From NCBI GenBank assembly GCA_905479915.1, contig CAJQOH010000008.1, positions 1 through 59,005 of the forward strand: a stretch of DNA of 59,005 nt, given 5' to 3'. Below, piece by piece: positions 2,644 to 17,157 of this stretch. This stretch comes from an uncultured Flavobacteriales bacterium. GTDB lineage: Bacteria; Bacteroidota; Bacteroidia; Flavobacteriales_E; Vicingaceae. The translations under genes were made by a program, and so were the position numbers. Position 1 is the first letter of the stretch; each line of letters begins with the position of its first letter. Below the pieces are notes generated by a model. The model made no database searches and had not been told where the DNA came from. It saw nothing but the letters and a program-made list of their open reading frames with translations.

Positions 2644-2904
2644 CTAAAAGCCTTCAAATACCCCTAAACCAAATAAAGCGAAATCATATTTTACTGGATC
2701 CTTTGGATCTAGATCCCTTAAACTTAAATCCAATTCTGTTACCGCCTTATCATCATTTTGTTTTCTATGAAGTAACCCTAATTTCCTTGCTACATTTCCT
2801 GAATGTACATCTAAAGGACAAGATAAATTGGCAGGAGAAATAGATTTCCACAATCCAAAATCTACGCCTGTATTATCGTTTCTTACCATCCAACGTAAAA
2901 ACAT
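2644..2904 (-). pseudogene. TIGR02757/DUF2400 protein, C-terminal fragment (gene split by the element)
   Basis: This fragment encodes the last 86 residues of a TIGR02757-family protein. It contains the conserved LSCPLDVHSGNVAR block and ends in DPVKYDFALFGLGVFE. The missing N-terminus is on the far side of the element, at 16615-17157. The ATG at 2904 is the internal Met of the original MFLRW sequence and falls inside the 6-bp att core; upstream of it the sequence is element DNA. Joined to the right flank through the core, the frame reads KNINMFLRWM without a gap. The family's role is not established. The D-x-H and LG patterns recall helix-hairpin-helix DNA glycosylases, which is my inference. 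The fragment is unlikely to work alone. Confidence 0.92.
2899..2904. other. attL core (AAACAT)
   Basis: Six bases shared with 16642-16647. To the left lies the host TIGR02757 gene, to the right element DNA. Beyond these six bases the two junctions diverge at once on both sides, as expected for recombination by a large serine integrase, which uses a very short identical core. Confidence 0.85.
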
Positions 2905-2919
2905 GTAACTACGGATAAT

Positions 2920-2959
2920 TAAGGTAGTAGATTAATTTATTATGTTATAACTAACTTTG
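2920..2959 (+). promoter_or_regulatory. Promoter of the rescue gene, next to an attP arm
   Basis: A perfect Bacteroidota -7 box, TAACTTTG, lies at 2952-2959, only 6 nt before the ATG at 2966, so the mRNA would be nearly leaderless. No clear TTG appears at the -33 position. TAAGGTAG at 2920-2927 is the inverted partner of CTACCTTA at 16623-16630, next to attR. The promoter lies wholly inside the element, so the rescue gene travels with its own expression signal. Confidence 0.6.
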
Positions 2960-2965
2960 TACACG

Positions 2966-3739
2966 ATGAGTAAAGTTATAGATAAAGAATTAAAAGATTT
3001 CCTCGATGAGAAGGTAATAAAATACAACACACCAGACTTTATTGGTAGTGACCCAATTCAGATACCTCATCAATACCAACTGAAAGAGGATATCGAAATA
3101 TCTGGCTTCCTAGCTGCGACCATCGCATGGGGTAACCGAAAGATGATAATTAAGAATGCTCAGCAAATGATGGAGATGATGGGTAACTCTCCTTATGATT
3201 TTGTTATGTCTTATAATGATGACCAACTAGAACGATTAGATGGGTTTGTTCATAGAACTTTTAACAGTATAGATTTCAGTTACTTCATCAAAGCACTTAA
3301 TAATATTTATAAGAATCATGGTGGGATGGAGAAAGTTTTCTCATCACATACCTCAACGGACAGTATGTTACCAGCGATAACAGAATTCAAAAGATTATTC
3401 TTTTCAATAGACCACCCAGATAGAACTACTAAACATGTGAGTGACCCATCAAAGGGTAGTTCATCCAAAAGGATAAATATGATGCTTAGGTGGTTCTGTA
3501 GACAAGATAACAACGGAGTTGACTTTGGCATCTGGAAGAATATATCACCTTCTATCTTATCGTGTCCATTAGATGTTCACTCTGGTAACGTGGCTAGACA
3601 GTTTGGTTTACTTACCAGAAAACAGAACGATGCTAAAGCATTAAATGAGTTGGATGCTAATTTAAGGGTATTAGATTCTGTTGACCCAGTTAAGTATGAT
3701 TTTGCTTTGTTCGGTCTTGGAGTATTCGAAAAGTTTTAA
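2966..3739 (+). CDS. Full-length TIGR02757/DUF2400 family protein, element-borne rescue copy
   Basis: A complete 257-residue member of the family that the element disrupts. It aligns end to end with the two host fragments, by eye about 60% identical in the N-terminal part and about 75% in the C-terminal part. It is therefore a diverged homologue and not a recent duplicate. It retains the conserved stretches IPHQ, GFLAATIAWGNRKM, MGNSPYDF, LDGFVHRTF, FFSIDHP, LSCPLDVHSGNVAR and DPVKYDFALFGLG. The ATG at 2966 is preferred over an upstream in-frame TTG (2957), which lies inside the -7 box. Where the host gene carries the att core (Met-Phe codons), this copy has ATGATGCTT (Met-Met-Leu), so it lacks the integration core. 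Biochemical function is unknown; a resemblance to helix-hairpin-helix DNA glycosylases is inference. Confidence 0.93.
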   Translation: MSKVIDKELKDFLDEKVIKYNTPDFIGSDPIQIPHQYQLKEDIEISGFLAATIAWGNRKMIIKNAQQMMEMMGNSPYDFVMSYNDDQLERLDGFVHRTFNSIDFSYFIKALNNIYKNHGGMEKVFSSHTSTDSMLPAITEFKRLFFSIDHPDRTTKHVSDPSKGSSSKRINMMLRWFCRQDNNGVDFGIWKNISPSILSCPLDVHSGNVARQFGLLTRKQNDAKALNELDANLRVLDSVDPVKYDFALFGLGVFEKF

Positions 3740-3745
3740 CCTATA

Positions 3746-3858
3746 AAAACGTGGTACTTTAAAAGTGTGGTACTTTTTTCTTTAATACCATTAAAATAAT
3801 ACGCTTAAAACGTAGTACTTTAATCCTTTGGATATAAGTAATACGTTTCGTATATTTG
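3746..3858 (+). promoter_or_regulatory. Putative res site and promoter of the small serine recombinase
   Basis: The intergenic stretch holds three copies of GTRGTACTTT (3751-3760, 3767-3776, 3812-3821). It also holds the palindromes ACTTTAAAAGT (3757-3767) and TTTAAT-acc-ATTAAA (3781-3795). A promoter follows: TTG at 3828-3830, a 20-bp spacer and a perfect -7 box, TATATTTG, at 3851-3858, 19 nt before the recombinase ATG. Repeated sites directly upstream of a resolvase gene are the usual layout of res sites, which also autoregulate the gene. Part of this stretch may terminate the upstream gene (AAAAGT/ACTTTT hairpin then a T run). Confidence 0.5.
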
Positions 3859-3877
3859 ATTCATCAAACAAATAATT

Positions 3878-4501
3878 ATGAAAGTTGCTATTCTAACTCG
3901 TGTATCAAAAGATTCACAATCCTACTCTCGACAAATAACTGATTTAAGAAAATATGCTGATAGCATGAGTTATGAAGTTGTTGGTGAATTCAATGAAAAG
4001 ATTTCTGGTGCTGCTAAAAATGAAGATAGAGAAGCATTAACTGGATTAGTTAATTTAATTAACACCAAAAAAATAGACAAAGTTCTTATCTGGGAACTTT
4101 CAAGACTAGGAAGAAATACACTTGAGGTTTTAAAATCTTTGGAGTTGTTCCATTCGCAAGGCGTTTCTTTATACGTGCTGAATTACAGCATAGAAACTTT
4201 AAATGAAGATGGAACTATAAATCCAATGGCTCAGATGATGGTAACAATGTTGGCTGAATTCAGTCGTGCAGAACGCTCTGCAATTCAACAAAGATTGGCA
4301 TCGGGGTACAAGAAATATTTAGCTTCTGGTGGAAGGGTTGGTCGTATTAAGGGTGAAGGCATGAGTAAAGAAAATCTATTAGATAAGCACAAGGATGTTG
4401 TGAAATACCTAAACAAAGGTAGAAGTATTAGAGAAACTGCTACCCTTGTTGGCAAGAGCACAAGAACTGTTCAAAAGGTTAAGAAAAATCTCGTTACCTA
4501 A
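3878..4501 (+). CDS. Small serine recombinase (resolvase/invertase family)
   Basis: A 207-residue serine recombinase. The N-terminal catalytic domain (1-140) begins MKVAILTRVS, with the nucleophile at Ser10, and has the conserved LSRLGRNTLE block near 79-88 and EFSRAERSAIQQR at about 129-141 (start of the E helix). The C-terminus (150-207) is basic with a helix-turn-helix (SIRETATLVGKSTRTVQKV), the usual DNA-binding module of resolvases and invertases. Length and layout match the Tn3-resolvase/Hin group, not the large integrases. Upstream repeats look like res sites. A plausible job is resolving multimers of the excised circle; site-specific inversion is possible, but no inverted gene pair is seen. 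It is convergent with the HEPN-like gene, overlapping by 8 nt. Confidence 0.93.
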   Translation: MKVAILTRVSKDSQSYSRQITDLRKYADSMSYEVVGEFNEKISGAAKNEDREALTGLVNLINTKKIDKVLIWELSRLGRNTLEVLKSLELFHSQGVSLYVLNYSIETLNEDGTINPMAQMMVTMLAEFSRAERSAIQQRLASGYKKYLASGGRVGRIKGEGMSKENLLDKHKDVVKYLNKGRSIRETATLVGKSTRTVQKVKKNLVT

Positions 4502-5405
4502 ACTTCCAATCATCAAATTCTGGACGATAAATTACGTCAGTATAAGTAACATCTCCATTGTCCTTTGTAATTCTAATTTCGACTGGTTTCCCATCTTTAA
4601 GAAACATTCCACCATAGTGTCGATTAATTTTATTCTTAAGCCAGATATAGAAATTATGCAACATGATGGTAGTATGAAACATATCTACCCATTCATCAAA
4701 TGGGAGGTTGTGCAATTGATGTGATAGGTCACCATCAATGAAGTTGTTAGGGTGCATATTACGACCAAGAAAAGAAAAATTAGAGTGTGCAATACTATTT
4801 CTAATTTGAGTTTTATAAGCTAACTGGAAAGAATCAAAAACAGGTTTCGAATACTTCTTTATCTTGTCTCTAATGTGAATTCTCAGTAGTTGCTGTCGAG
4901 AAGCTATTCCTTCACCTCTACTGGATGATTTAACTTTAAAATGCCAATCATAAGCATTACCTTCCAGAATTTGCACTAACTCATACCATGTCTTGATAAA
5001 ATGGTCACCTTCCCAAATTTTTAAATAGACCATACTTTCAAGATGAACGGTCATTTGCTCACCCTTAAGTAATTCATCTATTTCACCTTTTCTCTCTTTA
5101 TCCCACTCATGTAATTTTAAATATTCTGGGTATGTCCATTCACTTAGCTTAGACCTATATTGATGTATAAACTCATAATGAGTACCATCTGCTAGCCCAG
5201 CACTTCCTGGTCCAATGATATAAGGTGACGCTTTTCTACCCTTACTCAATTCAAATCCTTCCATAGATTTCTCGAACCCTCCATTAATAACAACTAATAG
5301 AAGGTCAGATGGGTGACTCTGATTTTTTAAGGCATGTTGAAATAATTTTTCAAACTCTGGTTCTAGATGTACTCTTATGGAATCTAACTTATCTCTAAAT
5401 AACAT
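4494..5405 (-). CDS. Uncharacterised protein with HEPN-type RxxxxH motif, last gene of the restriction operon
   Basis: A 303-residue protein of no family I can name. A helical region (about 120-260) contains IRNSIAHSNF at 201-210, which gives R202-x4-H207, the signature of HEPN domains (many are RNases). The C-terminus (264-303) is a small beta-rich tail. No signal peptide or membrane helix is present. Its ATG follows the hsdR stop after a single nucleotide, so it is translated as part of the restriction operon. Possible roles are a toxin-like effector released when restriction fails, or a subunit of the complex. It could also be a HEPN domain without nuclease activity. The operon link is firm; the function is inference. 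Confidence 0.75.
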   Translation of the reverse strand: MLFRDKLDSIRVHLEPEFEKLFQHALKNQSHPSDLLLVVINGGFEKSMEGFELSKGRKASPYIIGPGSAGLADGTHYEFIHQYRSKLSEWTYPEYLKLHEWDKERKGEIDELLKGEQMTVHLESMVYLKIWEGDHFIKTWYELVQILEGNAYDWHFKVKSSSRGEGIASRQQLLRIHIRDKIKKYSKPVFDSFQLAYKTQIRNSIAHSNFSFLGRNMHPNNFIDGDLSHQLHNLPFDEWVDMFHTTIMLHNFYIWLKNKINRHYGGMFLKDGKPVEIRITKDNGDVTYTDVIYRPEFDDWKFR

Positions 5406-5406
5406 A

Positions 5407-8400
5407 CTACTTATTTAACCTATCAAATACCTTCTTCAACATATACTCCTTCACCATACCACCAAAATCTTTATCATCCATCATCTTGGAGAAGATGTCT
5501 TGGTTTTGGTCCATGCGACCGATTAGCTTATCCATAAACACATCTTCGAAGCCGAACTTAAAATTAGCCATAGAGTTGTTCTTAGCTTGCTCGGATAGCT
5601 TAATATCAGCTACCAACTCAGCTTCTATCTGGTCGAAGAATAATTTATCCGCATCGTTAAACTCGGTAGAGAATCGTGTGTTGAGTACTTCTATAATTTC
5701 TGATAGTGCTGCTTCTTCATCTTTATTGTTACTTCTGATTCCAGATTCGTTACTACCATCTAGACCATATTCAGCTTGGTCTTCCAGTGCTATGTTGTTC
5801 TCAGCTATCTTTTGTAGTCTGTAATATTCTAAGGAAACCTCATCACCCAGCTTAAATCTATCTTGTTGACCAGTACGTGGTAACTTCTTTAATAAGAAAC
5901 GACCGTAGGTAAATAGTTTTTCTAACTCAACATCACTAAAAGGCATTATCTGGGTTAAGAAAGAATATAGTCTGGTAAAGGATTGTAGAGCATGTTTAAA
6001 GTTCTCTTGGGTAATCTCAGTGCCAACTACATCTTCTTTAGAGTTCTCTTCTGGTAGCTGCTTAAAACGCTCCACTGCTGGGTCTATGTATGCATTCAGC
6101 TTACCTTGCTCCTTAACAGATAAGGTCTTCATGGATTTAAAGAAGATGTTACAGAAAGAATCCACCTCAGTATCCCAAATTACATGAGCCTTGTCTATCT
6201 CACCCTTAAGGTCGTATAAGTGATTCGGGTCAGTAGTTTCTTCAACTGTAGTTAACTCGTAATAAGGTTGAAAAGAATTTTGGATATCCTCAGTCTCATT
6301 AGTGAAATCCAAAACAAAGGTATCCTCTTTACCAGCACACATTCTATTTAATCTAGATAAGGTCTGTACACACTTTACCCCAGATAATTTTTTATCTACA
6401 TACATGGTGTGCAGTAGTGGCTGGTCAAATCCAGTCTGGTATTTATCCGCTACCAATAATAGTTGATATTCTTTAGATGCAAACTTCTTTGGTAGTTCTT
6501 TTTCTTTAAAACCATTCAGTTCTACTTCGGTTACTCCTTCTGGGTATTTATCATAAATCACTTTTCCAGAGAAGGCTACTAAGGTCTTAACATCTGTATA
6601 GCCTTTAGATGCTATGTACTTGTCAAACTCTTCCTTATAACGCACCGCATGAAGCCTAGAACTGGTTACTACCATTGCCTTAGCTTTACCACCAATCTTT
6701 TTAGATACAACTTGTCTAAAGTGTTCAATGATTACCTCACTTTTCTGTGCGAGGTTATGAGGATGAAGTGACATGAACCTACCAATGGCTCTAGCTGCTT
6801 GTTTCTTATTTACATTCGGGTCATCCTCAATTTCTTTAGATAACTTAAAGTAAGTTTTATATGTTGTATAATTCTTTAGTACATCCAAAATAAAGCCTTC
6901 TTCAATGGCTTGTTTCATTGAGTATAGGTGAAATGGTTTAGGTGTACCAGTAGTATCTGGTGTACCGAATACTTCTATGGTTTTAGGTTTTGGGGTTGCA
7001 GTAAAAGCAAAGAAGCTGAGGTTATCTTGTTTACCTCTGGCTTCCATAGATTTTCTGATTTCATCTTCTGCATCATCATCCAGCCCAGAATATACTTCTT
7101 CTTTTTCGGCTTCTTCTAAAGTCTTTGCTGATAGCACCTCTTTTAACTTCTTAGTGGCTTCACCACCTTGTGATGAGTGAGCCTCATCTATGATTACAGC
7201 ATACTTACGATTAGGTATCTCACCAATCTTGTCTAAGATAAATGGAAACTTCTGTAAGGTGGTGATAATGATGTTAGACCCAGCTGTAATTGCATCCGCT
7301 AACTGCTGAGAATCCTTATCAATCTTCATCACCACACCATCCTTATGCTCGAATTGGTAGATGGTGTTTTGTAACTGACTATCCAGTACTCTACGGTCGG
7401 TGATAACAATTACCGAATCAAATACCCGATTATTTAAAGCATCGTGTAAACTAGACAACCTATAAGATAGCCATGCTATACTATTTGATTTTCCCGAACC
7501 CGCAGAGTGTTGGATAAGGTAATTAGTTCCAGCACCATTAGACTTTGCATCCTTGGTTAAACTGCGTACCACATCCATCTGGTGGTATCGTGGAAATATC
7601 ATTGTCTCTTTCTTCTTCTTTACACCGTTCAACTCATATTCTTCTACGTTGAGGTGAAGGAACTTAGAAACAATATCTAACAAGCTATCCTTGGTCCATA
7701 CATATTCCCATAGGTAGGCTGTTCGGTATCCATCTTTGTTTGGTGGGTTGCCAGAGCCATTGTTATAACCAAGATTAAAAGGTAGATATCTCGTCTTCTT
7801 ACCAGCTAATCTAGTGGTCATAAATGCTTCATCAGTATCAACTGCAAAGTGAACTAGAGAACGCTTCTTAAAATGGAATATCGGCTCTGTTGGCTCACGG
7901 TCATATACATACTGTTTCTTAGCATTGTTAACCGTCTGTCCAGAGAACTGATTCTTCAATTCTATAGTAGATAACGGAAGACCATTAAGACTCAGCACCA
8001 TGTCTAATGAGTTTTTACCATCACGCTCGTAATAAAGCTGTCTGGTGACCGATAGGTGGTTCTTTTGATATAACACCTCAGCCTCTGGATTTAGCGTGCT
8101 CTCTGGTCTAAAGAAAGCCATCTTAAACTTCACACCATAGTCTGTAAAACCATTACGCAATACATCCAACGTACCTCTTAAGTCCAATTCACGGATTAAT
8201 CGATTTAGCACCTTTGTTTCAACCTCAGCCTTATGAATACCAGATATTTTCTCCCATTCCTTAGGTTGTGATTCCTTTATGAAGTCAGTAATGTATTTAG
8301 GGAATAATCCCAACTGAGGATTGTAATCATCTGAGTGACCTTGAACATATCCACCATGTTCCAATAAAGAAGCCTCAATAGCCGCTTCAAATGTTAATTC

Positions 8401-8421
8401 TGTATGTATTCCTTGTGCCAT
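5407..8421 (-). CDS. hsdR: Type I restriction enzyme, R subunit (HsdR)
   Basis: A 1004-residue motor and nuclease subunit, the usual HsdR length. The N-terminal nuclease domain (about 1-200) carries the D...ELKN-type active-site motif in SLDMVLSLNGLPLSTIELKN. The SF2 helicase domains follow: Walker A HSAGSGKSNS near 305-314, DEAH in VIIDEAHSSQ near 411-420, motif III FAFTATP near 472-478, and the second RecA fold with TGFDQPLLHTMYVDKKL and QTLSRLNR. The C-terminal helical region binds HsdM/HsdS. It translocates DNA with ATP after HsdS recognises unmethylated target and cuts at a distance. ATG at 8421 starts 2 nt after the DUF262 gene's stop, and a HEPN-like gene follows after 1 nt. Confidence 0.95.
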   Translation of the reverse strand: MAQGIHTELTFEAAIEASLLEHGGYVQGHSDDYNPQLGLFPKYITDFIKESQPKEWEKISGIHKAEVETKVLNRLIRELDLRGTLDVLRNGFTDYGVKFKMAFFRPESTLNPEAEVLYQKNHLSVTRQLYYERDGKNSLDMVLSLNGLPLSTIELKNQFSGQTVNNAKKQYVYDREPTEPIFHFKKRSLVHFAVDTDEAFMTTRLAGKKTRYLPFNLGYNNGSGNPPNKDGYRTAYLWEYVWTKDSLLDIVSKFLHLNVEEYELNGVKKKKETMIFPRYHQMDVVRSLTKDAKSNGAGTNYLIQHSAGSGKSNSIAWLSYRLSSLHDALNNRVFDSVIVITDRRVLDSQLQNTIYQFEHKDGVVMKIDKDSQQLADAITAGSNIIITTLQKFPFILDKIGEIPNRKYAVIIDEAHSSQGGEATKKLKEVLSAKTLEEAEKEEVYSGLDDDAEDEIRKSMEARGKQDNLSFFAFTATPKPKTIEVFGTPDTTGTPKPFHLYSMKQAIEEGFILDVLKNYTTYKTYFKLSKEIEDDPNVNKKQAARAIGRFMSLHPHNLAQKSEVIIEHFRQVVSKKIGGKAKAMVVTSSRLHAVRYKEEFDKYIASKGYTDVKTLVAFSGKVIYDKYPEGVTEVELNGFKEKELPKKFASKEYQLLLVADKYQTGFDQPLLHTMYVDKKLSGVKCVQTLSRLNRMCAGKEDTFVLDFTNETEDIQNSFQPYYELTTVEETTDPNHLYDLKGEIDKAHVIWDTEVDSFCNIFFKSMKTLSVKEQGKLNAYIDPAVERFKQLPEENSKEDVVGTEITQENFKHALQSFTRLYSFLTQIMPFSDVELEKLFTYGRFLLKKLPRTGQQDRFKLGDEVSLEYYRLQKIAENNIALEDQAEYGLDGSNESGIRSNNKDEEAALSEIIEVLNTRFSTEFNDADKLFFDQIEAELVADIKLSEQAKNNSMANFKFGFEDVFMDKLIGRMDQNQDIFSKMMDDKDFGGMVKEYMLKKVFDRLNK

Positions 8422-8423
8422 AA

Positions 8424-10247
8424 TTAAATAACAAATTCTTTAATTTTATTTACATCCCATATAAGTCTTGCTAATTGCTCATAGAGTTTTTGTCTTTCTT
8501 TTATAGTCTGTTTAGTGTAGTCTGGCTCATTTTTAAAACTTAAGTTGTTCGACTCTTTAAACCTTAAGAAATTTGGGTTGTTGGTATAACAATTCTCATT
8601 TAATGAAGCCACTAACAAGTTCTGACCATAGTATTTCTCTAGTTTTTTAGAATACTCATCATCGTTTAGACTGCGGTTAATATCTTGGGGAAGAATAACT
8701 AAATCACCAAACATATTTCTAGTTCGTTGGAATTCTTCCTCTGTTTCAAACTCTGATTCATATCTATCATAATGGTCTACCCAGATATGTTCTATATCGT
8801 AAGGGTTCTTAATCGTCCTATCCACATAAACATCAAACCTAGTATCCTTACCACTTTGTTTTTCTACGAAATGCGTAAGTCTTGCTAACTGATGTAACAT
8901 GTATCTTTTAGTCCACCCATTTAATGAGAACCCTTCAATACCATCAATTTTAAATTCCATGGTGTTAATCTCTTCCGAAAGAATATCAGCCAATTCCGCT
9001 GGTGACTTTCTTCTGATTCTCTTTGCCAGCATAAACATAGCATAGGTCATGGCAGAGTAATCCAACGTTTTATAGTTGAATATTCGAATAGATATAAATT
9101 GGTCTAAGAAACATGAAACGATTCTTAGTTTAGAATCTATCACCTCCTTAGTATCTGATTTATCTATAGCAGCCAATAGAATTAACGGTTGTAACGTAAA
9201 GTTTCTGTTAGCATTATAAAAGATGTGTTCAAATCCATCGGTTAGGGTATTCGCATATTCTAAAATCCTCACATAGGTGTTCGTAAACAAAATAAACTCT
9301 TGCTGGACAAACTGGTTGTAGTCAGCTGATTTTTTAAGTCCTATAAAAGATGATTTCTCTCTTACCCATTTATGAAAAGCAGTACCAATGATATCAAAAT
9401 CACCAGGAACTGCATTCTTCTTTCTTTCCCTAATAGAATCAGCATATTGTGCTCTCAGCCAAGTTTTAATACAATCGCTTTCTTGTTCTTTACCTAATGA
9501 TTTGAGTTCTAACATTTTTGTTTTCCAGAAATCATTAGCCTTTTGTCTTTCATCATTTTCTGCAATTTCTGACAGCAAGAAACCTTTCAGCATCTCAGCA
9601 GCAGTAAGACTTAGACCTCTATCATTCATTGATACAAAAATCTTATGGGCATCTTGTTCTGTTTGAGCAACAATCTTAATGAACTGAACATTATCTATCA
9701 ACCAATCCTTAAAGAACGGTAGAGAACCCTCTGGTATGTTGTCAATCATAAGATTAACAATGTCTCCATATCTTTTCCAAATATTCTGAACGCTCTCTGG
9801 GTGACCTTCTGGCTCAAACTCAACATCATCAATTATGGCTTCTAAACATTGCGTTCTTTCTTCTACGTTTATGTTAAAAGTAGTCTTACCATATTTTTGA
9901 GAATAAATTAGATTAAGCACCTCAGCTTTATCGTGTTCATCGTGAAGGTGTTTTGTAATATAGAGTAAAAGCAAACTCAATGAAGTTAGTCGTTGCTGAC
10001 CATCTATAATTGCATTTTCATCTTCTGTGAGAACAACTGACCCCATAAAATAATGTCCGTATTTTTCTACCTCTTGTCTTTCGTGGTCTGGGGAGTAATA
10101 ATCCAAGAACTCACCAGTTAAGTCTTCTACAAGTTCTTCTATTTGTTTACGACCCCATTGGTACTCTCTTTGGTAATAATGTATGCTGTACTTTACCCCA
10201 GTAAATAATTCTCTAATGCTTTTAGGTGCTCCTAATATTTTCTTCAT
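8424..10247 (-). CDS. DUF262-DUF1524 (GmrSD-like) nuclease embedded in the type I operon
   Basis: A 607-residue fusion counted from the ATG at 10247; an upstream TTG (10253) is less likely. The N-terminal DUF262 domain has YQREYQW near 25-31 and IDGQQRLT at 81-88, the ParB/Srx-like NTPase signature of GmrS, SspE and BrxU. The C-terminal DUF1524 domain is an HNH nuclease: DIEHIW with His487, then GDLVILPQDINRS with Asn524. Stand-alone relatives cut modified phage DNA (GmrSD), or act with phosphorothioate (SspE) or BREX systems (BrxU). Here the gene lies between hsdS and hsdR, with 7 nt before it and 2 nt after it. It may restrict phage DNA modified so as to escape HsdR. That pairing is inference. 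Confidence 0.9.
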   Translation of the reverse strand: MKKILGAPKSIRELFTGVKYSIHYYQREYQWGRKQIEELVEDLTGEFLDYYSPDHERQEVEKYGHYFMGSVVLTEDENAIIDGQQRLTSLSLLLLYITKHLHDEHDKAEVLNLIYSQKYGKTTFNINVEERTQCLEAIIDDVEFEPEGHPESVQNIWKRYGDIVNLMIDNIPEGSLPFFKDWLIDNVQFIKIVAQTEQDAHKIFVSMNDRGLSLTAAEMLKGFLLSEIAENDERQKANDFWKTKMLELKSLGKEQESDCIKTWLRAQYADSIRERKKNAVPGDFDIIGTAFHKWVREKSSFIGLKKSADYNQFVQQEFILFTNTYVRILEYANTLTDGFEHIFYNANRNFTLQPLILLAAIDKSDTKEVIDSKLRIVSCFLDQFISIRIFNYKTLDYSAMTYAMFMLAKRIRRKSPAELADILSEEINTMEFKIDGIEGFSLNGWTKRYMLHQLARLTHFVEKQSGKDTRFDVYVDRTIKNPYDIEHIWVDHYDRYESEFETEEEFQRTRNMFGDLVILPQDINRSLNDDEYSKKLEKYYGQNLLVASLNENCYTNNPNFLRFKESNNLSFKNEPDYTKQTIKERQKLYEQLARLIWDVNKIKEFVI

Positions 10248-10254
10248 GTACAAT

Positions 10255-11583
10255 CTAGTTTAATACCTCATCTCTAACATCAACTTTTCCAGTAACTACT
10301 TCGCTGATTAATGCTGTTTTATATTCTTTCATTAATTCGATTTCTTTGAACATATTTTGAATAGCATTGCTAATTCTGTTCGTTTCAGAATCTATGTAAT
10401 CAGCAATTTGAATTTGTTCTTCTACAGTTGGAATAGCAATAAACAAACTCTTTAAGTCATGAGTATTATATCTGAAAACTTTTAAACCTTTTGCATACTT
10501 CCTTAACTCTGGGCAAAAACGCTGAGAAAAGCGATAAAGATATTTCTCATTCAACAGCTTTCTGTTAGGTTTCAGAAGGATTTGCTCACCGCCAATCAAT
10601 CCTTTTTGCTCCTTATTGTAATAACAGGTATGACCAAGGTCTTCCATGGTTTCTGATGTAGATACTAAAATGGTGTCACCTTTTGAAACTACTTGACTTT
10701 CTTTATAAAACTCACTATTTACAAAGAAGTTAAAAGAATCATCCACGATATCAACTTTATAAACCTTACCGTATTGTAGAGCAACATATTCCCCCTTGTT
10801 CAATAGTTCATCTCTTTTAAATCCCGTGTTACCTCGAGTAATTTCTGCAATCCAATCAATCCTATATCTTGTCCAATGCTTAGGAATTTCCCCCAACCAT
10901 TCAATACCCGAATCCTTCATCGGAGCATTTGGGTCGAGACCTTTGGTAACTGCTTGGTTAATGATTGCAGTACGCTCTTCTTTTAATAACTCAATCAGCT
11001 TTTCTTTTTTACAGATGAGGTCATCTATTTGTGTAGTCTTAAGGTCTAGATAGTTGGCGATTTGGGCTTGTTCTTCTAATGGTGGATTTGTGATTCTTAG
11101 TTCTTTAGTCTGAGTCTGATTAAAAATAGGAAGTGTAGAGGAATCCGCTTCACTCACTATGTGTTCTTTAATAGAGTTAAGAAAGTACAGGGCATAGGAT
11201 GGTATCATTCTCGCTTTATCTAGGCTAATGGCATTAATCTGTTGATTAGAACTACACTCTTCTTTAGCTAAGCCAATCTTACCAACTGTAGCACCAATCC
11301 CCACCAAAAGAATAGAATCCTTATCGTATATTCTACATTTCTTATCTTGAACCGCTTTTTGCGTTACATGTTTCTTTGAAGTACCTAGAACTAAAGAACT
11401 AAAGTCACCTGGTCCGTACCATGGTATGTTACCACCTTCGTAATATTCTTTATTGTCGGATGGTGGTGTTGAGCCCGTTTTAACATAGTTAGCAACAAAC
11501 TTTAATCTTGTCAAATCCCAATGACTAGGAACCGTCTTGAAACCAATTACATTAGTATCCTTATATGAGTCGTATTTCTTCAT
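10255..11583 (-). CDS. hsdS: Type I restriction enzyme, specificity subunit (HsdS)
   Basis: A 442-residue protein with two target-recognition domains, each followed by a conserved helical spacer. TRD1 begins at SHWDLTRLKFVANYVKTGSTP (about 19-39). The central spacer, EEQAQIANYLDLKTTQIDDLI, leads to the LIELLKEERTAIINQAVTKGLDPN linker. TRD2 begins at EIPKHWTRYRIDWIAEITRGNT, and the distal spacer is EEQIQIADYIDSETNRI. It sets the bipartite DNA target for HsdM methylation and HsdR cleavage. The gene is intact and single; no second hsdS or inverted repeat is visible that would suggest specificity switching. The ATG follows the hsdM stop by 2 nt. The recognised sequence cannot be predicted. Confidence 0.95.
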   Translation of the reverse strand: MKKYDSYKDTNVIGFKTVPSHWDLTRLKFVANYVKTGSTPPSDNKEYYEGGNIPWYGPGDFSSLVLGTSKKHVTQKAVQDKKCRIYDKDSILLVGIGATVGKIGLAKEECSSNQQINAISLDKARMIPSYALYFLNSIKEHIVSEADSSTLPIFNQTQTKELRITNPPLEEQAQIANYLDLKTTQIDDLICKKEKLIELLKEERTAIINQAVTKGLDPNAPMKDSGIEWLGEIPKHWTRYRIDWIAEITRGNTGFKRDELLNKGEYVALQYGKVYKVDIVDDSFNFFVNSEFYKESQVVSKGDTILVSTSETMEDLGHTCYYNKEQKGLIGGEQILLKPNRKLLNEKYLYRFSQRFCPELRKYAKGLKVFRYNTHDLKSLFIAIPTVEEQIQIADYIDSETNRISNAIQNMFKEIELMKEYKTALISEVVTGKVDVRDEVLN

Positions 11584-11585
11584 AT

Positions 11586-13334
11586 CTAAGCGATTACCTC
11601 TTTAATTAAACCGTCAGTCTCTTCTTCAAGAGCCAAAATATCTTCACGTATTTCACCTAAAGACCTCAATGGTTTGTACTCATAGAAGTATTTGGTGAAG
11701 TTGATTTCGTACCCCACATTGGTCTTCTTATCGTCTACCCAAGCATCTGGAACATGCGGCAACACCTCACGTTGCATGTACTCATTAATATCTTCTTTCA
11801 AAGGTATGTTCTCACTATCTCTAAGGCTGCTATCTGGTTTAGGGTTACCTTTCTTATCGGTCACCACTTGTCCATTCTCTTTTAATGGTCGTTCTACGGT
11901 TACCTTAGAGTACCCGAAATCCTTATTATCAAATATCTTGCACTGGTCACTCTCCATTAAGTCACCGTATAGTTTAGTGATGTCATTGATATGGCTCTCG
12001 CTCAACTCGTTACGCTTATCACCTAGAGATTTACTCATCTTTTTATACAGGTCAACTGCGTTAATCAGTTGAACTTTTCCTTTTCTTTCTTCTGGTTTAT
12101 TATTGCTTATTAACCAGATATAAGTGCTAATACCAGTATTATAGAATAATTGGTTCGGTAAGGCAATTACCGCTTCCAACATATCATTCTCTATCAACCA
12201 CTGGCGGATACTAGATTCATTCTTTTTACTACTCGGTGACCCAGAGAATAATGGTGAGCCATTGAATACAATTGCTAAGCGTGAGCCACCTTCTTCTTTG
12301 GGTTTCATCTTTGCCATTAAGCCCATTAAAAATAAAAAAGAACCATCACTTACCGATGGCAATCCAGCACCATATCTTCCTCCATGACCTAAAGATTCAT
12401 GTTCCTCTTTTACTTCTTTTTCTACTTTTTTCCACTTCACACCAAAGGGTGGATTCGTAATTAGGTAATCAAACTTATGATTGATAAACTGGTCTGCTTT
12501 CTGCTTTTCACTATCTTTATTCTTTAAGCTGTTTGCTCTTTTTATATTGGAAGGGTTCTGTCCTTTTATTAGCATATCCGATTTACAGATAGCGTAAGAT
12601 TCTGGATTTAATTCTTGTCCAAATACCTCTAGACGTGCATCTGGATTCAACTCTTGCAAATATTCTTCTGCTACCGAAAGCATACCACCAGTTCCAGCAC
12701 AACAATCGTATATGGTCTTCACAACACCTTTCTGGGTAAGTGTATCTCTATCATCCATAAACAATAGATTTACCATCAATTTAATCACCTCTCTAGGAGT
12801 AAAGTGCTCCCCAGCAGTCTCGTTAGATATCTCAGCAAACTTTCTAATAATTTCTTCAAACATATAGCCCATATCCATACTAGAAACTTTCTCTGGATGA
12901 AGGTCTATTTCTTGAAATCGTTTTAATACAATAAACAATAAATTATGGTCATCTAGTTTAGTTATCTGATTGTCGAATTCAAATTGTTCAATAATCTCTC
13001 TAGCATCTTCCGAGAACCCGTTGATGTAATTCCTAAGATTCGAAGCAATGTTGTTAGGGTCTGCTATTAGCTTATTAAAATCGAACTGACTACTGTTATG
13101 GAAGTTGTATCCAGCTACTTTGTTAAGGATTGGGTCAAGGTTCTGAATGTTCATGCTCTTAACTTGCTCAAACTTTTTTAACACCTCAGCTTTAGAGTTG
13201 TCCAGTACACAATCCAACCTTCTTAATACTGTTAGTGGTAGGATAATCTTACCGTAGTCACTCTGTTTGTAGTCACCTCTAAGTAGGTCCGCAATGGACC
13301 ATATAAAATTCGCTGATTCTTTTACGTTCGTCAT
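11586..13334 (-). CDS. hsdM: Type I restriction-modification adenine methyltransferase (HsdM)
   Basis: A 582-residue N6-adenine methyltransferase. The helical HsdM N-terminal domain (1-160) begins FIWSIADLLRGDYKQSDYGK. The N6_Mtase domain follows, with the SAM-binding motif CAGTGGMLSVAEEYL near 216-230, the catalytic motif NPPFGVKWKK near 300, and HGGRYGAGLPSVSDGSFLFL. The C-terminus is long and matches the hsdM subgroup with an extended tail. It methylates adenine in the HsdS target to protect host DNA, and is required in the HsdR complex. The ATG at 13334 lies 4 nt after the stop of the small XRE regulator, so the regulator and methyltransferase are probably co-transcribed. Confidence 0.95.
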   Translation of the reverse strand: MTNVKESANFIWSIADLLRGDYKQSDYGKIILPLTVLRRLDCVLDNSKAEVLKKFEQVKSMNIQNLDPILNKVAGYNFHNSSQFDFNKLIADPNNIASNLRNYINGFSEDAREIIEQFEFDNQITKLDDHNLLFIVLKRFQEIDLHPEKVSSMDMGYMFEEIIRKFAEISNETAGEHFTPREVIKLMVNLLFMDDRDTLTQKGVVKTIYDCCAGTGGMLSVAEEYLQELNPDARLEVFGQELNPESYAICKSDMLIKGQNPSNIKRANSLKNKDSEKQKADQFINHKFDYLITNPPFGVKWKKVEKEVKEEHESLGHGGRYGAGLPSVSDGSFLFLMGLMAKMKPKEEGGSRLAIVFNGSPLFSGSPSSKKNESSIRQWLIENDMLEAVIALPNQLFYNTGISTYIWLISNNKPEERKGKVQLINAVDLYKKMSKSLGDKRNELSESHINDITKLYGDLMESDQCKIFDNKDFGYSKVTVERPLKENGQVVTDKKGNPKPDSSLRDSENIPLKEDINEYMQREVLPHVPDAWVDDKKTNVGYEINFTKYFYEYKPLRSLGEIREDILALEEETDGLIKEVIA

Positions 13335-13338
13335 ATAT

Positions 13339-13539
13339 CTATTCAGTTTCTTTATTCTCTATTAGTAAATCTTTCACACTCACTTGTAACAAGTCAGCAA
13401 TCTTGTATAAGACCTCAACACTAGGTTGTCTCTTATTGGTAACATAGCTATTCACCATGTTGTAACTTTTATCCAGCTTGGATGCCAGCCATGTTTGCTT
13501 AATCCCCTTATCGTCAAGTACTTCTTTTATCCTATTCAT
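13339..13539 (-). CDS. Small XRE-family regulator, first gene of the restriction operon
   Basis: A 66-residue single-domain HTH_3 protein: MNRIKEVLDDKGIKQTWLASKLDKSYNMVNSYVTNKR forms the helix-turn-helix, followed by PSVEVLYKIADLLQVSVKDLL. Size and position resemble controller (C) proteins that delay restriction gene expression after entry into a new host. The same operon encodes methyltransferase and nucleases. TATGAG/CTCATA half-sites 11 nt upstream of the start are candidate operators. It could alternatively be a simple autorepressor of the element. The HTH assignment is firm; the controller role is inferred from context. Confidence 0.88.
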   Translation of the reverse strand: MNRIKEVLDDKGIKQTWLASKLDKSYNMVNSYVTNKRQPSVEVLYKIADLLQVSVKDLLIENKETE

Positions 13540-13549
13540 AGTATGGAAT

Positions 13550-13583
13550 TATGAGTCATTAAATATAGTTTTTATATCTCATA
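13550..13583 (-). promoter_or_regulatory. Candidate operator/promoter of the restriction operon
   Basis: Inverted half-sites TATGAG (13550-13555) and CTCATA (13578-13583) flank a near-consensus -7 box, TATATTTA on the minus strand (13560-13567), upstream of the XRE gene start at 13539. The layout fits autoregulation by the XRE protein. No clear -33 box is visible. Confidence 0.35.
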
Positions 13584-14004
13584 TAATGATGGAGAATTAA
13601 TTTATTTTTATCTGTACCAAAACGCACCTCATTAGCACGTATTCGCTGACCCAATATTGAGGACATCATCATTTTAGTAACATTTCTTAGTATTTATTTA
13701 AAGAGGCAAGCACCCCCTCCCTCCATTAATAGAAGGATAATTAAGGGTACAGAAGTCACATCCAGTAACCTTTCTTACATATAGATGAAAGTTTTTTTGT
13801 CGTCAGCGGCAATTGAATGTATTTATAATTAGTAGACCAGATTTTTTGGACCACAAGCATCACGACAAAAGTCGTTATGAACAAAAGTGAAAGAAATCGG
13901 GTCGGGAGACTTTACTATCAATGGATTGTGTAGTAACCTTAAGCAAATAACAACAAGAACCTCCTTGTATTGGACTTCTTGTGCCTTTATTAAAACAATA
14001 CAAA
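13584..14004. other. Intergenic region between the restriction operon and rep; candidate origin
   Basis: About 420 bases with no convincing gene. A 66-codon minus-strand frame here overlaps the rep start and has no domain. Visible structures are a small hairpin ACGAC-aaaa-GTCGT near 13861-13874 and an inverted pair ACAAGAA (13953-13959) / TTCTTGT (13976-13982) directly before rep. HUH initiators usually nick hairpins near their own gene, so this is where I would place an origin. No iterons were recognised. Confidence 0.3.
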
Positions 14005-14667
14005 ATGAAATTAAAAACATGGATGACATCAGAAGAGATTGCTAGTATAGCTAATAAGCATACTAGAACAATAGAAAGAAGAAGAGATAAAATAATTAAA
14101 GAAACACCAGATATAGATTGGTTTAGAATGAAATCGAAGCCTTACAAGTATCACATGAATTTCTTAGAAGAGTTTGTATCACCTATAGTATTTGACCTAT
14201 TGGATAGGAATAGACAGTTGAGTAACACCATAGCATGTATGCATAGAACAGATTCATTAGAGCAACACCTATCGTTTTTAGAATGGGACTATTTTGTCAC
14301 CATAAGCTATAAAGATTCATTGAGCAGTAAAAGATGCTTTTCAGCTATGTCTGAATTATATGAAAAAGTTGAGGCATATTCATTCAGTGGTGACTGTAGA
14401 ATGTTCTTTACCACCGAGCCATTCTCTAATCGTAAAGGATACCACAACCATCTGGTACTAAGAATGAGTGCAGATACTAAAACTGTTACCCGTTTTATTG
14501 AGAAATATGCACCGATAGGTCGAGTTGATGTTAAACCGTATGACCATGAACTAGCTGGTGTATTCTATACCGCTAAGGACAAGCATAGAAACGATGATTG
14601 GGACATCCTAGGAAACAAGTTAACCGAGGAAGGGATACAAATAGAAAAGAATCGCAAATCAGCTTAA
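14005..14667 (+). CDS. Putative HUH-type replication initiator (Rep)
   Basis: A 220-residue protein from the ATG at 14005; the frame can be read back to a GTG at 13981, but the ATG is preferred. The N-terminus (7-35) looks like a helix-turn-helix (MTSEEIASIANKHTRTIERRR). Three motifs in the right order suggest an HUH endonuclease: YFVTISY (96-102); GYHNHLVL with His147 and His149 as metal ligands; and FYTAKDK with Tyr188 as nucleophile and Lys191. The length is short for a plasmid Rep and there is no helicase domain. It may start rolling-circle replication of the excised element or act in transfer. The middle residue of HNH is not hydrophobic as in typical HUH motifs, which lowers certainty. 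Confidence 0.65.
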   Translation: MKLKTWMTSEEIASIANKHTRTIERRRDKIIKETPDIDWFRMKSKPYKYHMNFLEEFVSPIVFDLLDRNRQLSNTIACMHRTDSLEQHLSFLEWDYFVTISYKDSLSSKRCFSAMSELYEKVEAYSFSGDCRMFFTTEPFSNRKGYHNHLVLRMSADTKTVTRFIEKYAPIGRVDVKPYDHELAGVFYTAKDKHRNDDWDILGNKLTEEGIQIEKNRKSA

Positions 14668-14834
14668 AGGCTCTCTAGTTGGTGAATCTTGTCCTTAATA
14701 GATTCTATCTCACGTTTAAATCTTAAGACCTTGATTCTGTTTTGTGCCGCCACCCGTTGGTCATTATCGGTGGCGATGTTCAGCTTGGTCTGCTGTAGTT
14801 TTATTTGGTTGTCGATGTCTTGTATTTTATTCAT
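14664..14834 (-). CDS. Small coiled-coil ORF, 56 residues
   Basis: An ATG at 14834 opens a 56-residue frame on the minus strand ending at 14664. It is highly charged and amphipathic with no Pro or Gly (MNKIQDIDNQIKLQQTKLN... RFKREIESIKDKIHQLESL), typical of a short coiled coil. It is convergent with rep, overlapping its last 4 bases, and otherwise fills the rep to integrase gap. The regular heptads argue for a real gene. It could be a Rep regulator or a recombination directionality factor, but no family is recognised. Confidence 0.5.
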   Translation of the reverse strand: MNKIQDIDNQIKLQQTKLNIATDNDQRVAAQNRIKVLRFKREIESIKDKIHQLESL

Positions 14835-14860
14835 GGTATCTTTTTATATATAAATATCAT

Positions 14861-14898
14861 GCTACCTTATTTAATCTAAATAAGAATCAATAAATTTG
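14861..14898 (+). promoter_or_regulatory. Integrase promoter overlapping a copy of the attP arm
   Basis: A perfect -7 box, TAAATTTG, lies at 14891-14898, 19 nt before the integrase ATG. Directly upstream, 14861-14878 reads GCTACCTTATTTAATCTA and matches 17 of 18 bases of 16622-16639, the element side of attR. If that arm is an integrase binding site, the protein would also bind over its own -33 region and repress itself. Confidence 0.55.
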
Positions 14899-14917
14899 TA
14901 AGCATAATAATTATACC

Positions 14918-16618
14918 ATGCTAGCAATATACTGTAGACATTCAAAAGCAAAAAAAGAAGGTAAAGACACATCTATTGCTACACAGAAAAAACATGGCGT
15001 AGAACTCGCTGAATATTTAAACTTAGAATACGACACCTATATCGACAAGGGGATATCTGGCACGAGTGTAGATAAAAGAGAGGGGATGTTGCGATTACTT
15101 GAGGATGTTAAAAAGGGTAAGATAACAGTATTCTATGCTCATGACCAAGATAGGATTGAGCGTGATACAAGTTTCTGGTTGGAGTTCTGCTCAATCATAA
15201 TAGCAAACAATGTTAGGTACTTCGAGAACACTTTAGAAATTGATTTGACCGAACCTAGCAATGCTATGAGCACGACCATGAAGTCGGCTTTTTCTGCGTA
15301 TTACGCTGCCCAGACAAGTAAGGCTGTTAAGAACTCTATAAAGAGAAATGCAGAGAGAGGAAAAGTGAGAGGGATACTACCTTATGGCTACACTAAAGAT
15401 GAAGAAGGTTTTGTTATTAAGCACACAGAACAAGCTAAAGTGGTTGAACTCATTTATGAGTTATCGCTAGGAGGTTTGGGGACATATTCTATATCAAATG
15501 AACTTAATAAGAAAAACATTCCAACCAAGTTTCATGAATTTGAAGGTGATATAAAACGTAAGGCAGATAAGTATCAACCAGAAAGAACATTTAAAAAATC
15601 GGAAGTAAGGTGGAGGGGGAATGTCATCTACGACATGATTAAGAATGAATCTTACAAAGGAATTAAAAGAGTTGGGAACATAATTGTTGAGATACCTCCA
15701 ATTGTTTCTGATGAAACATGGATTAAGGCTGTTGAGAACCTAGAGCAGAACAAGAAAAATGTTGGTCCTAAAAATCAGTACCATTATCTGTTAAATGGTC
15801 TTGTATACTGCCACCATTGTGGAAAACCAGTTATAGGTAAAAAAAGATTAAAAGGTAGAGATAACGCATATAAGTGTACTGGAAAAAGATACCCAAACCC
15901 AGACTGCACAGAATCAAGAGGATTAAACATTCCTAAACTTGAAACCTTTATAATAAAACACTTATTCGAATCAAAGGATTTAACAACTTACCTCTTAAGC
16001 CTACCAGAAAGAGAGGGTGAGGTTGATGTGATGAAAAGTAAGTTAATACAATCTAAGAAAGACTTAGAGAAGATTAAAACAATAATAGCTAATACAGATG
16101 AATTATTGGTTTCAGCAACAGCTGACCGAAGAGAGCGATTTATAAAAATACTAGATACCAATGAGAAGAAACAACGCTCATTAGTCGAGACTATAGAAGT
16201 ATTGGAAATTAAAATTGGTGAGAGTCTTAAAACAGAACGTGATAAAATACTTAAAGAAGTTACCCAAGGATATGATAGGGACTTATCTTTTGATGAGTTG
16301 AAAGATTTGGTTCATACGGTTGTAGAAAAAATTGTGGTGAAACATGTTGTGAAAGAAAAAGAAGATATTGAAAAATCACATCATGTTCTATTCATAAAGT
16401 ATAAAGGGTTCGATGAACAACTGGTGATTCAAACAAATAATTACCTTGCCTACACATGGTCGGGTATGATATTTAACAATGTCAATAATGTTGAAGAACT
16501 AGACCCGAATAAAATAGAGATTGATTGGGAAAAGGTAGCAAATCAAGAAACGTTAACAATGCCAATGCAGAGTTATAGGCTGACTCTAAAGGAAGATGAG
16601 TTAATTCATTTTGATTAA
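14918..16618 (+). CDS. Large serine recombinase (integrase)
   Basis: A 566-residue large serine recombinase. The catalytic domain (1-150) starts MLAIYCRHSK with Ser9 as nucleophile, and has DKGISGTSVDKREGM and DQDRIERDTSFW. The recombinase domain (about 155-285) contains LPYGYTKDEEG and WRGNVIYDMIKNESYKG. A zinc ribbon is formed by Cys298, Cys301, Cys320 and Cys330. A coiled coil (about 355-425) follows, the element needed for synapsis and directionality. These enzymes join attP and attB through a very short core without host factors. The stop is 23 nt from the attR core, the usual location for an integrase gene. A recombination directionality factor was not identified. Confidence 0.95.
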   Translation: MLAIYCRHSKAKKEGKDTSIATQKKHGVELAEYLNLEYDTYIDKGISGTSVDKREGMLRLLEDVKKGKITVFYAHDQDRIERDTSFWLEFCSIIIANNVRYFENTLEIDLTEPSNAMSTTMKSAFSAYYAAQTSKAVKNSIKRNAERGKVRGILPYGYTKDEEGFVIKHTEQAKVVELIYELSLGGLGTYSISNELNKKNIPTKFHEFEGDIKRKADKYQPERTFKKSEVRWRGNVIYDMIKNESYKGIKRVGNIIVEIPPIVSDETWIKAVENLEQNKKNVGPKNQYHYLLNGLVYCHHCGKPVIGKKRLKGRDNAYKCTGKRYPNPDCTESRGLNIPKLETFIIKHLFESKDLTTYLLSLPEREGEVDVMKSKLIQSKKDLEKIKTIIANTDELLVSATADRRERFIKILDTNEKKQRSLVETIEVLEIKIGESLKTERDKILKEVTQGYDRDLSFDELKDLVHTVVEKIVVKHVVKEKEDIEKSHHVLFIKYKGFDEQLVIQTNNYLAYTWSGMIFNNVNNVEELDPNKIEIDWEKVANQETLTMPMQSYRLTLKEDELIHFD

Positions 16619-17157
16619 GCCGCTACCTTATTTAACCTATTAAACATATTAATATTTTTTGCTGCAGACTTTTTATATGGATCACTTACATGCTTTTGTG
16701 TTCTATGAGGATGATCAATTGAAAAAAATACCTTTTTAAATTCATGTATTGCTGGTTGCATGGAATTGTTTGTTTGATATTTTTCAAAAACTGTCTCCAT
16801 TCCATCATGATTCTCATAAATATTTTGAAGACCCTTTATAAAGTATTTAAAATCTTCGGCATTAAAAGTTCTGTGCACAAAACCATTCAAACGATTCAAT
16901 TGAACATCATCATGATCCATAATAAAATCATAAGGAGAATTTCCCATTAACTGAACCATACGGTTCGCATTTTTCACAATCATTTTTCTATTCCCCCATC
17001 CAATAGTAGCGGCTAAAAACCCTGCAATCTCTACATCTTCTTTCAAACTAAATTGATGAGGAATAGAAATCGGATCTGGCTCTATAAAACTTGGGCGGTT
17101 GTATTCAACCACCTTTTCATCTAAAAAAGACTTTATATCTTGGCTTATCTTATTCAT
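16615..17157 (-). pseudogene. TIGR02757/DUF2400 protein, N-terminal fragment with element-encoded tail
   Basis: The host gene's N-terminal part (about 172 residues) up to KNINMF, after which the reading frame runs into element DNA and adds NRLNKVAA before a stop. The ATG at 17157 is chosen because the -7 box TAATTTTG (minus strand, 17167-17174) overlaps an upstream TTG. The conserved segments GFLAATIGWGNRKM, MGNSPYDF, GFVHRTF and FFSIDHPHRTQKHVSDP are intact, so decay is not visible; this suggests a recent insertion or a truncated protein tolerated beside the rescue copy. Its stop overlaps the last codon of the convergent integrase gene. Confidence 0.92.
16622..16647. other. attR: core AAACAT with element arm
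   Basis: The core AAACAT is at 16642-16647; host gene sequence continues to the right. On the element side, CTACCTTA (16623-16630) is the inverse of TAAGGTAG (2920-2927) inside attL, so the joined circle would have an attP with inverted arms around the core. Confidence 0.85.

Follow-up and report, generated by a model that had tools for sequence, protein, structure and literature searches.

Genomic islands that insert into a gene usually complete that gene through attP, an arrangement that works in one orientation only; this is how islands in icd and in tRNA genes are described in the sections of PMC10111431 available to us. The element analyzed here, which resides in a gene of the DUF2400/TIGR02757 family, resembles these islands in inserting at a specific site within a gene and restoring that gene's function. 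Unlike the islands described in those sections, it completes nothing where it joins the host gene, which remains in two parts; instead it brings a full second gene, which is foreign, altered at the target and found in either orientation (PMC10111431). Large serine integrases share with the recombinase of this element the domain make-up, the inverted-repeat attP arms and a site in a conserved gene (PMC4111918 and PMC10083194, in the portions available); compared with the integrases known from those portions, the DUF2400 elements stand apart in having a self-complementary AT centre and in occurring naturally in both orientations. A paper cited in PMC4111918 states in its title that the orientation of Bxb1 integration depends solely on the central dinucleotide. 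Helper-embedded PICIs also carry an intact copy of a gene like the one that they interrupt; the available text of PMC10111431 presents this backup as a captured phage late gene and describes no alteration of its att site.

In the open-licence literature, much of it accessible in part, searches on rescue or replacement copies and on palindromic centres found no such element, a weak indication of absence given this scope; for the family itself, DUF2400 led to one paper there, on Bifidobacterium, and TIGR02757 to none. Synthetic homing drives break their target and supply a recoded rescue gene that the cutter does not recognise. The DUF2400 element appears to follow the same logic, but is natural, is based on a DNA integrase and operates without homing. 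Our main reading, to which we give a probability of about 0.7 on the strength of sequence comparison, is that the element inserts at the Met175 codon of DUF2400 (numbered as in the rescue copy) and supplies a complete foreign copy, and that this altered copy would be a poor attB, making the element self-immune.

The split DUF2400 gene and its element

The window, that is, the whole stretch of 59,005 nucleotides that was analyzed (bases 1-59005 of contig 8 from a 3.57 Mb genome), contains a chromosomal DUF2400/TIGR02757 gene on the minus strand that is cut in two, at the invariant Met codon (Met175), by an inserted element with the following parts.

2899..16647, no strand: whole integrated element, core to core, with 13,743 bp between the core copies (~13.7 kb)
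2644..2904, minus: 3' part of the split host DUF2400 gene
16642..17157, minus: 5' part of the split host DUF2400 gene, the frame continuing into the element to 16615
2966..3739, plus: complete rescue copy of DUF2400/TIGR02757 (PF09674, E 1.4e-84; TIGR02757, 215 bits against a cut-off of 139)
3878..4501, plus: second, small serine recombinase, 207 aa, adjoining the rescue copy
5407..8421, minus: Type I restriction subunit HsdR (cargo), 80% identical to HsdR of G404
8424..10253, minus: GmrSD-type protein (cargo)
10255..11583, minus: Type I specificity subunit HsdS (cargo)
11586..13334, minus: Type I methyltransferase HsdM (cargo), 80% identical to HsdM of G404
14918..16618, plus: large serine recombinase, 566 aa, with Resolvase, Recombinase and zinc-ribbon domains, ending at attP arm B

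The element is delimited by the halves of the host gene on both sides and by the junction overlap ATGTTT, which the split host reads at both junctions on the minus strand (2899-2904 and 16642-16647). The joined host protein is 85% identical to that of the unsplit relative G028, and the frame of the 5' fragment is still open. A search of the whole genome returned exactly three DUF2400 pieces, namely the two host halves and the complete copy. The latter belongs to DUF2400/TIGR02757 by a profile match that exceeds the curated cut-off, and its likely start is the ATG at 2966, the ORF tool having placed it at a TTG (2957). Among 13 other genomes of the genus, seven have one one-piece DUF2400 match each and six have none at E 1e-8. 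The Resolvase, Recombinase and zinc-ribbon protein at one end and the inverted-repeat arms of attP identify this as an element of the large-serine-recombinase type; precise junctions with a short shared core are found in five elements. The type I restriction-modification set is complete (hsdR, hsdM and hsdS), with HsdR and HsdM scoring below the NCBIfam cut-offs.

Several other features of the window were recorded. A 228-aa protein (13981-14667) has no Pfam, NCBIfam or PADLOC match and contains GYHNHLVL, a possible equivalent of the two-histidine motif known from HUH replication proteins. Genes at 257-1954, 23758-25032, 25073-27034 and 45501-47000 have the repeat families D2 and D4-D6 in common (four places each; D1 and D3 occur in three places each) and, by reading of the sequence, are putative SpoIIE-type phosphatases. 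The first letters of the window are ATGCTTAGG, matching the rescue copy, which was judged to be chance.

Related elements, attP symmetry and orientation

Three further elements with a rescue copy reside at the same DUF2400 codon, in G404, G839 and G851; in each, the host halves lie at the borders, a homologue of the large recombinase abuts the site at one border and the full copy sits immediately within the other. G839 and G851 each have their two borders on separate contigs, and these are taken to belong to a single element; the G839 recombinase frame holds one stop. With two further interrupted genes, in G151 and G302, insertions at the Met175 codon are found in six genomes in total. These two emerged from 17 genomes of the class with two DUF2400 matches each; in the remaining 15, pieces of one gene lie together, with no insertion at Met175. 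The host 5' frames end at or shortly past the junction and the full gene is separate, so that the target is not continued across the junction.

The G151 insert (contig C11; L108 ~6840-7480) is ~640 bp long, breaks DUF2400 and has both attP arms without a recombinase or a rescue copy; we read it as a mini-element or a deletion remnant. In G302, two contigs (C15 and C4; the end of L106 and the start of L107) both stop exactly at the core ATGT of the split gene. No DUF2400 copy besides the disrupted gene was found in G151, and DUF2400 matches are present in 351 of the 395 genomes of the class, with none in the other 44; DUF2400 is therefore dispensable, a point against the main reading.

The large recombinase had a single match, a distant one (27%, G013), among 46 genomes of the window's order; further searches with it gave G404 plus two matches at 30% in the 395 genomes of the class, nothing except G404 at E 1e-70 in 399 genomes of the order of G404, and G839 and G851, besides G324, in 64 genomes of the order of G302. 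The recombinases of G013, G324 and G247 (26-31%) were set aside, there being no DUF2400 in the available flanks; those of G324 and G247 are at contig ends. Neither the recombinase, used singly and as alignment A1, nor the rescue protein found a relative in scans of viral contigs, and a scan of genome contigs gave one distant recombinase (26%, Evansella). Plasmid records contain DUF2400 in five cases and the recombinase in 174, and phage records contain DUF2400 in 15, all below 60% identity. Four of these 15 were opened, and in the three annotated ones examined no integrase is named within 5 kb of DUF2400. In Bacteroides and Parabacteroides gut phages (L208, L209 and L210), including LoVEphage, DUF2400 lies outside the annotated integrase regions. 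MT837540.1 (L211), deposited as a bacteriophage, looks bacterial, and its Met-Ala-Leu site was accordingly not counted as an element copy; its DUF2400 lies next to a methionine-synthase-like gene, and the record also includes a cytosine-methyltransferase-like gene (names by reading).

Between the window and G404, the large recombinases are 37.5% identical and the rescue copies 65%, with HsdR and HsdM at the 80% given above; elements at this site appear to swap modules. The counterparts in G404 are as follows.

L041, 2501-5512: HsdR counterpart
L041, 7203-7832: small serine recombinase, 31% identical to that of the window
L040, 18417-20000: HsdM counterpart

The small serine recombinase adjoins the rescue copy in G404 as it does in the window, and a resolvase-like frame, recognised by reading of the sequence, lies near the large recombinase in G851 (L185 ~15692-16468).

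The ends of the element in the window carry the following features.

2903..2927, plus: attP arm A, ATGTAACTACGGATAATTAAGGTAG, with the same spacing from AT as nine other arms
16623..16647, minus: attP arm B, ATGTTTAATAGGTTAAATAAGGTAG
2952..2959, plus: promoter-like TAACTTTG, a match to TAnnTTTG

When the ten arms of five elements are aligned on ATG, their spacing is the same, in the form ATGT......GG.TAA, and attP is thus symmetric about AT, the probable crossover dinucleotide. Such a self-complementary centre predicts insertion in both directions. The orientations are 2:2: the rescue copy runs against the interrupted gene in the window and in G851, and with it in G404 and G839. The G151 remnant, which holds no gene to orient it, is tentatively placed in the orientation of the window by the similarity of its arms. 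In all four elements TAnnTTTG, which we take to be the Bacteroidota -7 promoter motif, is found at a distance of 48-50 bases from the core, counted from the A of its AT (shuffle chance 0.07-0.10 for each). A gene that is complete and brings its own promoter works whichever way round the element lies, and this would account for the carriage of a whole gene.

The target site in interrupted hosts, unsplit genes and rescue copies

In the rescue copy of the window, the equivalent of the target is changed.

3479..3499, plus: altered target-equivalent site, ATGATGCTTAGGTGGTTCTGT

According to the original prediction, the rescue copy differs here from the ATGTTT of the host gene, lacks the integration core and has changed codons with the protein nearly preserved. 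The letters do differ in this way: the host ATGTTT is confirmed, the host reads ATGTTTTTACGTTGGATGGTA across the empty site, and Met-Phe-Leu-Arg-Trp-Met-Val in the host faces Met-Met-Leu-Arg-Trp-Phe-Cys in the copy, by substitutions with no insertion. The claim about the core holds for the ATGT block, which is lost, but not for the probable crossover AT, which is kept, one flank only being changed; given that 125 of 125 genes have this Met codon, the accurate wording is that the copy lacks one flank of the core and retains AT. The change is a coupled amino-acid swap at residues 176 and 180 and not a silent recoding, and 'nearly preserved' was generous for a copy with protein identities of only 66% and 74% to the two host pieces. 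The DNA identity between copy and host is ~67% throughout (343/512 and 179/264); because about one-third of all bases differ, the altered codons alone prove nothing.

The evidence comes from the comparison of related sequences, which the original prediction had itself proposed. The junction overlaps are ATGTTT in the window, CATGT in G404, ACATGTA in G151, CATGTA in G839 and AACATGT in G851, the common part being ATGT. The reference set consists of 145 unsplit genes (125 plus 20 more, with G324 counted once and one of the two G031 copies read), which are those nearest to the query among the matches and not a random draw, 'unsplit' meaning not interrupted at the site, with a stop or frame break elsewhere in a few (e.g., G011, G209, G309 and G213). 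ATGT is present in all six interrupted hosts and in 139 of the 145 unsplit genes, and all four rescue copies read ATGA, the base after ATG thus being T in the former two groups and A in the last. Among the unsplit genes with ATGT, the T follows from a Phe or Tyr codon in 138, and G226 has a TTG Leu codon. TGGATGG, 12 bases after the start of ATG in 6/6 interrupted hosts, is lost from 4/4 rescue copies, where it is replaced by TGGTTCT (window), TGGTTAT (G404 and G839) or TGGTTTG (G851); bases +15 and +17, which are A and G in the six hosts, are changed in all four. No copy that retains the ATGT block was found among the four rescue copies, and a consistent loss of the target sequence across related elements is supported. 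On a weight matrix built from the six hosts, three rescue copies score below all 145 unsplit genes and that of G851 scores above two of them, although these scores partly restate the amino-acid change, the attB requirement being derived from six hosts that share the protein constraint.

Self-immunity of the rescue copy is the best reading of these comparisons. The large-serine-recombinase element would insert at the Met175 codon, splitting the gene, and would supply the complete foreign DUF2400 copy from just inside arm A. If the integrase needs the flank that is lost in the copy, the copy would be a poor attB, so that attP would not recombine with it in the circular form (self-inversion or deletion), sister elements would not insert again and the cell would retain one working gene. 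The self-complementary AT would make insertion orientation-blind; a replacement 3' end fused to attP would then fail in one of the two directions, and a stand-alone gene would be carried instead. Rejection of the copy by the integrase, selection for this rejection and AT as the point of crossover are what we infer from the sequences.

Residue 176 is aromatic in 138 of the 145 unsplit genes; the seven without Phe or Tyr (G348, G218, G344, G226, G159, G167 and G420) are also the seven with the lowest matrix scores. The altered state is therefore not unique to the elements and the protein tolerates it. This bears on an unlikely alternative, namely that the source lineages already had Met or Leu at 176 together with Phe or Leu at 180, immunity being a by-product or a filter on donors. 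The altered pair is indeed carried by unsplit G226, G167, G344, G218, G159 and G420. Around the first five, comparison with element parts (the proteins of the window and the G404 recombinase) gave no match except DUF2400 itself, over 20 kb in G344, 12 kb in G226 and G159, 6.3 kb in G218 and 2.8 kb in G167; 1.2 kb of surroundings was read for G420. By reading, G226, G167 and G344 have DUF2400 beside one peptidase-like gene, and G218 and G159 beside a SpoIIE-type gene. These five are unexplained natural or relic cases of the altered state.

In a tree built without the att columns, the rescue copy of the window and G348 fall in a clade with G076 and five genes of the window's genus, the window's own host gene among them (98/90), the G404 and G839 copies are sisters of the Tyr-bearing G227 (99/96), and the G851 copy joins G226 and G167 (100/99). 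For the G851 copy, the nearest chromosomal relatives are already altered and a donor state older than the capture is clearly possible. Against inheritance from donors in the other cases, the chromosomal neighbours in the window-copy and G404/G839 groups have Phe or Tyr, with the exception of G348, and all four rescue copies have a state found in 7 of the 145 sampled genes. By hand arithmetic that ignores kinship, the chance that randomly drawn unsplit genes are all altered is 35/497,640 for three and 21/10,440 for two. The tree requires at least six changes of state. The 13-row clade that contains three rescue copies has eight altered rows and five that are not, which makes the number of separate origins uncertain; with the sister copies of G404 and G839 counted once, two captures are well separated and a third is likely. 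The trees omit G239, G070, G283, G403 and G419; the finished tree and the set used for coupling also omit 22 rows of dense distant clades and include 14 of the 20 added genes.

Chance divergence of a mobile copy under relaxed selection would fit the difference between copy and host at about one-third of the bases and is nevertheless highly improbable, given how few the departures from conserved residues are and where they lie. The copy of the window departs from the class consensus at 4 of 102 conserved columns, three of the four being residues 176, 180 and 181, which lie among the eight conserved columns 175-182 (hypergeometric p 0.0013). The rescue copies have 2-4 departures each, half or more at the target site (p 0.03 for G404, 0.03 for G839 and 0.0054 for G851), compared to only 3 of 255 departures in columns 175-182 for 111 chromosomal rows with Phe or Tyr. 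The 102-column test retains the altered chromosomal rows; an earlier conservation set of 119 rows left out G239, G070, G283 and the altered rows, which makes it circular at residue 176. Residues 176 and 180 also change together: in the tree set, 11 of 11 rows without an aromatic 176 also lack Met180, which is present in 108 of the 111 rows with one. Most often, Phe and Met have traded places across an interval of four residues, a spacing that would put both on one face of a helix; a search for a solved relative gave no match. A reason at the protein level, such as avoidance of mixing with the host N-terminal fragment, whose frame remains open, with an incidental effect on DNA, would account for amino-acid replacements in place of silent changes and is hardly plausible given how close the changed residues are to the crossover (within six codons).

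A possible scar and possible gene replacement between families

The exception noted above, G348, belongs to a different family and has one DUF2400 match (search E 0.001), with the same altered site as the rescue copy of the window and 82% identity to it. Of nine other genomes of its family that were examined, eight have DUF2400 after a metB-like gene and co-oriented with it (names by reading), although in detail the metB-like gene is broken in G107 and another frame lies between the two in G283; the ninth, G387, has no metB-like neighbour in the available stretch. G348 has its gene at this native locus in the reverse orientation, with the metB-like gene on one side and on the other a repeat-protein gene, which G107 also has beside the locus. 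Neither an attP arm nor a host fragment was seen there by eye, and no element part matched. It is as if a rescue copy had been left after the rest of an element decayed, plain gene transfer being the alternative. Extended from this case, the self-immunity reading would make the element a natural counterpart of the recoded-rescue drive, with an orientation-blind insertion and an integrase-proof foreign copy that decay leaves as the sole copy, G348 being the scar; this extension is tentative and we put it somewhat short of even odds.

The comparison turns a guess of self-immunity into a comparative result and links a palindromic centre, two orientations and a stand-alone rescue gene in one mechanism. 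A naturally orientation-blind recombinase, together with escape alleles of its target, would be useful for mapping the rules of attB recognition. If the main reading is correct, integrase-proof rescue genes would let elements use protein-coding targets in the middle of a gene and would provide a route for the replacement of housekeeping genes between families; if the scar is genuine, each visit would exchange the gene between families and leave the lineage immune to the element.
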